Source: Tubiluchus corallicola (Eukaryota > Priapulida > Priapulimorpha > Priapulimorphida > Tubiluchidae). From it: a DNA stretch of 64,000 bases. Shown one piece after another: positions 18,701 to 21,700 of this stretch. The number at the start of each line of letters is the position of its first letter. Position 1 is the first letter of the stretch. Under the pieces are notes generated by a model that had not been told where the DNA came from, did not search any database, and saw only the letters and a list, made by a program, of their open reading frames with translations. Location: positions 1 to 64,000 of the forward strand of contig JAQGDQ010000790.1 in assembly GCA_030141605.1 (NCBI GenBank). The letters run 5' to 3'. The position numbers and the translations under genes were made by a program.

Positions 18701-21700
18701 GTTTAATGGGAGAATTCACGTTCCAACTTGCAAATGCAAGTAACTGCAGAACGAATGCTGAAAAGGGACGAGTCCCAAAACAGGACAGACGAATCGTGCA
18801 ACTCCAGTTGAGCGAACACGTCAGAACAAGACAGGCTTGCCCAAAAAAAACCACCCCAAGAAATCAGGCACAGCAGTTCAGCTAGGGGGGAGAAACGGTG
18901 TACCCTTCTTCAACGCATGGTCCAACACGGCTTTCAACTCTTCGTAATCGACTTCTAAATCTTCCCCGGATATCCGTGCGAAAAAATCCTTCACCCCAAC
19001 CTGCTCCTCAACTGGCTTCGTTGATTCTTCGACCGGCTTTACCGTCTTCGACTAAAACACGGACGATAAACGGTTAGTAAACATGTATAAAGACCTTACC
19101 CTTCTTAAGAACTGTATTGAGCACCGTGTGCAGTTCCTCGTAATCGATTTCGAGGTCCTCTCCGGCAACCTTGGAGAAGAAGTCCTTGACAGCCAGCTCT
19201 TGATCCCTACTGGGTGGCTTCACGGGTTTCTGTAATTACCAGAGAACGTTCGAAGCACTTGAAATGAAGACAGATATGAAGGCATTTATTTGAAGCTGCA
19301 CAATGAATGAAGTGTTTGCACTTATGGATTGCAATTCATACAAGACACTTTAAGTTTGAACATGTTCAGAAAAAAAATTGAAAAATTATTTGGATTAAGA
19401 ATGTGAATGCAAGAATGTTCATAAACCACTGCAGTTTATACTACTACAATTACTACCTTTGAGGGTAATGATTGGTAATATTTGCAGGTAACCATTAAGC
19501 TTATACATCAAAGTTTGATGTTCTGCCTTTAGTTTAAATGAATTTATAATTCTATAAGTGTATTCTTAATAGCGTAGTATATGTTTTTTATAGCGATATC
19601 TATGTATGTAATCATACCTTTGTAATCAGTGTACGTAAGTGAATTGTAATTTGTTATTACCCAATAAAATATGAAATATGAAATGAGTTGAAAAAAGAAG
19701 GGAGATGCTGAAGAACAGTGAACCAGTCGAGATTTGAACACCCCCGACTACTCCCATGTACTTTCTGCATCTGAGTTACTTGTCCAACATGACAGAGCAG
19801 GCCCGACATTCCCTCATTGAGGCACACCATCCAACAGTGCCACCGAGACCTGAAATTACTACTCCCATGCACTTTCAGCATCTGAGTTACTTGTCCAACA
19901 TGACAGAGCAGGCCCGACATTCCCTCCTTGAGGCACACCATCCAACAGTGCCACCGAGACCTGAAATTACTACTCCCATGCACTTTCAGCATCTGAGTTA
20001 CTTGTCCAACATGACAGAGCAGGCCCGACATTCCCTCCTTGAGGCACACCATCCAACAGTGCCACCGAGACCTGAAATTACTACTCCCATGCACTTTCAG
20101 CATCTGAGTTACTTGTCCAACATGACAGAGCAGGCCCGACATTCCCTCCTTGAGGCACACCATCCAACAGTGCCACCGAGACCTGAAATTACTACTCTCA
20201 TGCACTTTCAGCATCTGAGTTACTTGTCCAACATGACAGAGCAGGCCTGACAATCTCTCATTGAGGCACACTATCCAACAGTGCCACCGAGACCTGAAAT
20301 TACTACTCCCTGGCACTTGCAGCATCTGAGTTACTTGTCCAACATGACAGAGCAGGCCCGACATTCCCTCCTTGAAGCACACCATCCAACAGTGCCACCG
20401 AAACCTGAAATTACTACTCCCGTGCACTTTCAGCATCTGAACTACTTGTCCAACATAACAGAGCAGGCCCGACATTCCCTTCTTGAGGCACACCATCCAA
20501 CAGCGCCATCAGTTCCCCGACTGGTTCGCAATTTTTGTTAAATAAACTGCAATAGTTTATGAACATTCTGCCATTCGCAGTCATAATCTTATTAATCACA
20601 TTGTTAATTGATAGCTAATTTGAAGAATTAATGTTCAAAATGCGACCGATGTTTAAATTCTTTCTATTAGATGATTATTGTTTTTTATTTAATGATTATT
20701 AAACTGTTTTATTAAATGCTGTTATGATGCAAACTTATGTGACTCATGCACGAGGTAAAGACTGCATGTCTACCGAAAATTTCAGGCCTACCATGAACAT
20801 GATGAAATAATAAATGAGTGTTACACTAATCAAGTTAATGATAATCTTGTTAATCAAATGCTGCACAAATTTGCCTTGTTAAAACATTCTACAATTTTAT
20901 TAAGCACAGACGATTGTTTCGACTTAGCAGACATTTTCAATGTAATAAATCCAGCTAAAAGGGAATAATTAGTACATTTGATAGCGTAATATCAAAGCAC
21001 AAGAAAACCCTCCACTTACACAAAGGTTAAAAAATTCGCTCGCTCTGAAATTTTATACCATTTACATACTGCCTTTTTGCAGACAGGGCTTGCGTCGTCT
21101 GCAGTAACGCTGTATAAAACATATGAACATGTAAATTCAAACTCGCACGATGACAATAGCTCATTTGAAACAAATTTAGGTTAACACTGAGTGAAGTATG
21201 AAAAAATAATCTGAGCATTCGTAGCACACATGTTATTAACTAAGAAAAATTTTAAATTACTGTATCTTGTTAATAAGATTACATAAAAATACATTTTTTG
21301 CTTTGTGAGTGGCACACCATGGAGGGTAAGTCAACAACATTTTACCAGTTGGTGAAGACATTTTTAAGAATTAATAGATTTCTTTTCTAATTACATAATT
21401 CTTTCATGCAGGTAAGCGAAATGCCAAGTAATATAAGTTTGACGGAAAGTTTTCTAGGACATAGTTATTTGCTTTTCTTCTTTTCTTCCCCTGCGAGTGT
21501 TTATATGACATCATGTAATGCACACTCAGTAGTGTTGCGGAAATTTAAAATGAGAACAAACAAAACAGCCTTTCAACACGAGTACTTTATACGCATAAAA
21601 TTACTATGAAGGATATAATTTTTTTAAGGTGATTTTTCTAAAACCTACTTCATGTACCCCTTTTCCTTGTCCTTTAAGGTACACAATACATCATTACAAA

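Follow-up and report, generated by a model that had tools for sequence, protein, structure and literature searches.

Tandem duplicated exons have been described in the actinins, in the P/Q calcium channels and in OGDH, where, according to the part of PMC9177970 concerned with them, the intervening introns are often short and branch points enforce exclusion. In the same account, the EF-hand splicing of the actinins is presented as limited to chordates (PMC9177970), and in ACTN1 and ACTN4 calcium binding is kept in only one version, as stated in the passages of PMC9741552 on these two genes. For human OGDH, the exclusion between exons 4a and 4b is ascribed, in the section of PMC7969005 that deals with it, to branch points mapped at 25-41 nt past the 5' splice site.

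The locus studied here belongs to the priapulid Tubiluchus corallicola, and lies in a window of 64,000 nt (the whole stretch of DNA that was analyzed). An earlier note on this DNA had proposed that a calpain gene therein carries two tandem, phase-matched versions of the exon coding for its first EF-hand (EF1), and that these are spliced in a mutually exclusive manner. Our analysis of the sequence suggests that the tandem EF1 duplicates, exons 12a and 12b, most likely do behave as mutually exclusive exons, a reading whose probability we place at roughly 70%.

The calpain gene and its two EF1 exons

Open frames, calpain motifs and GT-AG sites were used to build the gene model, and the exon boundaries in it were inferred by means of reading frame, homology and the GT-AG signals. 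The rebuilt gene lies on the minus strand, with its start codon at 48880 and its stop at 9696; its exons follow the order 1-11, 12a, 12b and 13-18, with GT-AG boundaries throughout (Table 1). For both isoforms, Pfam returned Peptidase_C2 (422 bits), Calpain_III (166 bits) and EF-hand_1 (41 bits), and the penta-EF-hand (PEF) region matches calpain structures. In addition, the motifs GDCW, GHAY and RNPWG were found, which we take to be the context of the catalytic Cys, His and Asn. The window gene is a classical (penta-EF-hand) calpain, comprising a protease domain, domain III and C-terminal EF-hands.

Table 1. Positions of the calpain gene, the EF1 exon pair and the neighboring exons within the window
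Feature	Position	Strand	Basis
Calpain coding region, exons 1-18 (Peptidase_C2, Calpain_III, EF-hands)	9696..48880	-	gene model, Pfam
Exon 11, 40 nt, phase 0 out, upstream of the pair	26175..26214	-	gene model
Exon 12a, 130 nt, 13-residue linker and EF1 core, phase 0 in, phase 1 out	19100..19229	-	translation, PDB calpain EF1 match, gene model
Gap between 12a and 12b, 48 nt, GT...AG	19052..19099	-	sequence, intron table
TACTAAC branch-point-like motif in the gap	19073..19079	-	motif scan, predicted branch point
Exon 12b, 148 nt, 19-residue linker and EF1 core, phase 0 in, phase 1 out	18904..19051	-	translation, PDB calpain EF1 match, gene model
Exon 13, 59 nt, phase 1 in, downstream of the pair	16458..16516	-	gene model

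The coordinates, lengths and gap size that had been given for the two exons in the earlier note were reproduced to the base, and the phases claimed for both were the same in our model. The translations of 12a and 12b are stop-free. In the rebuilt gene, 12a alone yields 2223 nt (740 aa) and 12b alone yields 2241 nt (746 aa), whereas the frame is lost both when the two are included together (2371 nt, stop at codon 624) and when neither is included (2093 nt, stop at codon 584); the codon counts and frame losses claimed beforehand are thereby matched exactly. With either 12a or 12b between them, exons 11 and 13 would be linked in frame, and a transcript with both, or without either, would run into an early stop, so that joint use and joint skipping are predicted to be non-productive, with cryptic in-frame joins as a formal exception. 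Within the window, tblastn matched 12b by 12a with E = 1e-12, no third EF1 copy was found in the window by the search with 12a, and calpain EF1 in solved structures was matched (one chain) with E = 3e-7 for 12a and E = 0.0025 for 12b. Judged by these scores, the likeness of 12a and 12b to each other and to calpain EF1 is far above chance, and the two are adjacent homologous exons of equal phase, as in a mutually exclusive pair. An uninterrupted exon running across the gap was ruled out, as a stop lies 8 residues beyond 12a.

The two exons could, in principle, be used together in frame by means of a cryptic splice site, which would give a doubled or hybrid EF1 region. Scanning of GT/AG pairs over 19229..18904 did reveal open combinations, for example one in which a GT lying 5 nt beyond the 12a donor is joined to the real 12b acceptor, with an intron of 43 nt. 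From the real 12a donor, six in-frame, stop-free joins reach AGs within 12b (introns of 73-160 nt, with no pyrimidine tract), and further in-frame joins start from weaker GTs in 12a or in the gap, reaching, for example, the real 12b acceptor (introns of 31-118 nt). However, joining of this kind would require purine-rich AGs within 12b or weaker GTs, and 63 of the 64 homologues have one EF1-like place; cryptic in-frame joins look poor, and we regard such an outcome as very improbable. Protein P0003 from Gambusia was considered as a case of doubled EF1 and rejected, its two cores lying 711 residues apart in what is apparently a fused gene model.

Several other features of the gene and of the window were recorded. 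The loop of EF5 (exons 16-18, 12346..9696, minus strand), presumably the dimerization hand of calpain, is several residues shorter in the alignment than that of mammalian calpains, and the EF5 loop of P0004 from Priapulus caudatus is short at the matching place. Intron 13 (16457..15020, minus strand) splits EF2 just past the first loop Asp. Its donor, GTATCCTTT, is of the U12 type (minor spliceosome), and it carries TTCTTTAAC, whose branch A is followed by a further 12 nt. Two calpain paralogues on C2252 have the donors GTATCTTTTT and GTATCCTGG, the first also with TCCTTAAC near the acceptor; no U12-type intron in calpain genes was found by title in the literature searched. A reverse transcriptase fragment (41101-41757, minus strand; RVT_1, E = 1e-9) lies within intron 1, and a minisatellite (19747-20508; 111-bp unit, 6.9 copies, 95% match) lies in intron 11, approximately 520 nt upstream of 12a. 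Long minisatellites are also present at 53430-54812, 8277-9126, 42311-43461 and 52319-53009, with units of 55/111, 20, 42 and 71 bp, respectively; two of them, at 53.4 and 42.3 kb, are open in several frames. A 62-bp tandem repeat at 50120-50600 contains CTAACCCTAACTCTAACCC stretches resembling telomeric-type repeats.

The 48-nt gap and the splice sites

The gap starts with gtaagg and ends with ttttag (19099..19052). Four YTNAY motifs were found in it, TACTAAC being the best match; the branch A predicted by this motif scan is base 26 of the gap, and 22 nt separate it from 12b. The remaining introns of the gene measure 128 to 12,093 nt, in agreement with the range of over 100 nt to 12 kb reported previously. 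In the calpain paralogues of the same genome, collinear protein matches are separated by 45 gap entries, the smallest being 230 nt; these entries, from seven stretches (20 regions, 200 kb), are alignment gaps in which some introns were possibly entered twice, and they cover calpain loci only, rather than amounting to a genome-wide intron census. One read-through intron in the paralogues measures approximately 140 nt. Introns of 45-50 nt are spliced in some animals. For vertebrate exon pairs, a donor-to-branch limit of approximately 50 nt is given in the relevant part of PMC7969005, and both the whole gap and the predicted branch motif within it fall below this vertebrate-derived steric limit. 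The contention that the gap is far shorter than the other introns (48 nt against at least 128 nt) was upheld, and it is predicted to be too short for splicing of 12a to 12b, the limit itself being a vertebrate one. Binding of the 12a donor would then leave the predicted branch point of 12b, at a distance of 26 nt, sterically inaccessible.

A different outcome would follow if the gap were spliced as a small intron, in which case a double-inclusion mRNA would be made and its frameshifted products decayed. The gap does have a GT, an AG and a good branch motif, and among human mutually exclusive clusters, in the portion of PMC5740500 that treats them, frame-breaking lengths are found in 60%, of which 22% show joining reads, and only 9% present potential steric interference. 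Nevertheless, 48 nt is less than any other calpain intron measured in this genome and less than the limit of approximately 50 nt, and we consider this outcome unlikely, mutually exclusive use of 12a and 12b being preferred.

Splice-site strength differs between the two exons. A splice-site model trained on this gene (16 donors and 16 acceptors, all inferred and one of each U12-like) gave 10.5 bits to the acceptor and 7.4 bits to the donor of 12a, against -3.0 bits and 1.0 bits, respectively, for those of 12b. On the same strand, 32% of GTs and 24% of AGs score as well as the sites of 12b, and among the ordinary (non-U12-like) sites of the gene only the exon 2 donor (-3.7) and the exon 6 acceptor (-3.3) are weaker. 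As two ordinary sites are weaker still, 12b appears usable, though probably as a regulated or minor form; the weakness of its sites counts against strong constitutive use. Under mutually exclusive splicing, 11-12a-13 would be the probable default, having the stronger sites, and 11-12b-13 the regulated alternative. The same scores would also suit a gene in which only 12a is used, constitutively, and 12b is rarely used or silent, which we judge to be improbable, as 12b has its phases, acceptor, donor and branch motif in place.

Signs of selection on both copies and the residues that differ

Over the 30-codon core of EF1, 12a and 12b have 20 of 30 residues in common, the same count as obtained earlier, and 56 of 90 bases (62%), with agreement at 17, 27 and 12 of the 30 first, second and third codon positions, respectively. 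According to the Nei-Gojobori method, 18 of 18.7 synonymous sites differ between the cores, and dN is 0.27. When 34 random base changes were introduced on 12a, in a null that allows one change per site and is blind to mutation bias, a mean of 10 of 30 residues was kept, 20 were reached in none of the 5000 trials, and 36% of the trials were stop-free. We also compared both cores with 67 other EF1 cores, derived from 64 homologous proteins and the three own paralogues, which form a non-independent set with many near-identical insect entries. Here, 12b scores higher in 51 cases and 12a in 14, with 2 ties, and the median identity is 15/30 for 12b and 13/30 for 12a; vertebrate (four fish entries, frog), hairworm and some crustacean cores are nearer to 12a by score.

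Synonymous saturation, together with a dN of 0.27, makes both copies look selected as protein, which argues for the use of both. Moreover, since it surpasses 12a against 51 of the 67 other cores, 12b is, on this comparison, a well-formed EF1 and not a decaying copy. The pseudo-exon reading of 12b is disfavored by both lines of evidence and, with 12b stop-free, so is a gene in which 12a alone is used. Of the mutually exclusive splicing originally proposed, the phase lock and the short gap were confirmed, while the use of both copies is here argued from selection. Nothing was found in favor of an assembly artefact or a mis-joined allele as the origin of the pair. Exons that are unequal in length and linker, and with cores at only 62% DNA identity, cannot represent the same exon read twice; this possibility was rejected, and we give it next to no weight.

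With regard to the protein, the ten core positions that differ between 12a and 12b are 6-9, 15, 21, 22 and 25-27. Positions 12, 14 and 19, which we take to be the acidic calcium ligands of calpain EF1, are identical in both, and at position 9, presumably a backbone ligand, 12a has Ala whereas 12b has Ser, as do 6 of the 67 other cores. The linker is net +1 in 12a and net -1 in 12b, on 13 and 19 residues, respectively, and overall the changes between versions fall within the linker and the helices. Both proteases would have the same catalytic and C2-like domains, and would differ in the linker to the penta-EF-hand domain and in the ten EF1 residues. The earlier note had suggested a different Ca2+ threshold or a different domain coupling for the two isoforms; as the acidic ligands are unchanged, the former is not favored, and an effect on the coupling between C2-like and penta-EF-hand domains, or on partner binding, seems likelier than a loss of calcium binding by EF1. 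The way in which the calcium signal passes from the penta-EF-hand domain to the protease core of calpain seems to have been studied mainly with engineered mutants, and natural full-length isoforms that are alike except for EF1 and its neighboring linker, and that both keep the acidic ligands, would, if confirmed, represent a clean test of that coupling.

Distribution of the pair and comparison with known systems

The 12a/12b pair was observed in one genome and, among the best candidates of a genome search (E up to 10), at one place. Single EF1 exons were found elsewhere among the best candidates, namely at C2252:298 kb, C2252:338 kb and C920:72 kb, the latter being matched with 12a only (E = 1.96); the search with 12b returned, among its best candidates, the pair and two of these paralogue exons. 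All three paralogue exons have the phases of the pair, with entry in phase 0 and exit in phase 1, and no second EF1 copy was found within 3.1 kb around each of them. As the single EF1 exons keep these phases, the exon boundaries appear to be inherited and to predate the duplication. The region C2252:288-348 kb (L014-L019) holds two tandem classical calpain paralogues in 60 kb, with exon breaks at approximately the same protein positions as in the window gene.

A tree of 21 rows was based mainly on the protease and on domain III, and comprised 19 of the 64 homologues together with one paralogue and the window gene. In it, the window gene groups with P0004 from Priapulus caudatus (100/97), and its own paralogue on C2252 comes next (100/99). 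P0004, the closest other sequence, is 66% identical to the window calpain over 703 aligned residues; its annotation shows one EF1 version, and its cluster contains this sequence alone. None of the loci retrieved from the present genome is identical to P0004, which, on the evidence of one gene, points to a probable priapulid or close relative other than P. caudatus. A protein search with the 12b region gave none of 41 candidates at E<=1e-3, the control with 12a being nearly as empty (1 of 51). Two Condylostylus proteins, P0062 and P0063, were considered as an EF1 swap in a fly and rejected: they differ over their full length, with 66% identity, and look like separate genes.

Among the best matches in the open-licence literature searched, no calpain with a swapped EF1 was found, in agreement with the earlier note, which knew of none; the class of mechanism is known, and no earlier case was found in the calpain family in that literature. 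Arthropod calpain-A/B (e.g., in Bombus) are similar in that their isoforms vary around EF1, through a stretch of the linker and an insert after EF1, both of them optional, but differ in that the EF1 core is constant: one core is present per set among 10 Bombus, 4 Brassicogethes, 2 Acanthoscelides and 2 Chelonus entries, and in 2 entries from the hairworm Gordionus the core differs by one residue. Aplysia AplCCal1 is, like the window gene, a protostome classical calpain with alternative sequence between its C2-like and penta-EF-hand domains; however, in the part of PMC5650170 describing its isoforms, this consists of short optional linker inserts (a, b or neither, and c), with EF1 unswapped.

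Exons 4a and 4b of OGDH are similar in the spacing of the branch point, at 25-41 nt in the account cited above and at base 26 for the motif predicted here. They differ in that the OGDH branch points, as that account has it, are unusually far from the 3' splice site, whereas here the distance is an ordinary 22 nt in a tiny gap, and in that 4b of OGDH codes for an EF-hand-like DxDxD site, whereas the calpain pair codes for the EF1 of a penta-EF-hand domain. Overall, we are inclined to the view that one locus gives two calpains by a steric and phase-locked swap of EF1 and linker, which would be the first in a calpain, would be independent of the EF-hand swaps of alpha-actinin and calcium channels, and would provide two modes of activation or partner binding. 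Like the alpha-actinin of vertebrates, the window calpain has tandem duplicate EF-hand exons, of which one would be used at a time. Unlike ACTN1 and ACTN4, as portrayed in the passages cited above, it keeps the acidic ligands in both versions, and, unlike the alpha-actinin exons, described in PMC9177970 as a chordate feature, the 12a/12b pair sits in a protostome protease, in which, if our reading is true, a short-gap, phase-locked exon swap arose again.
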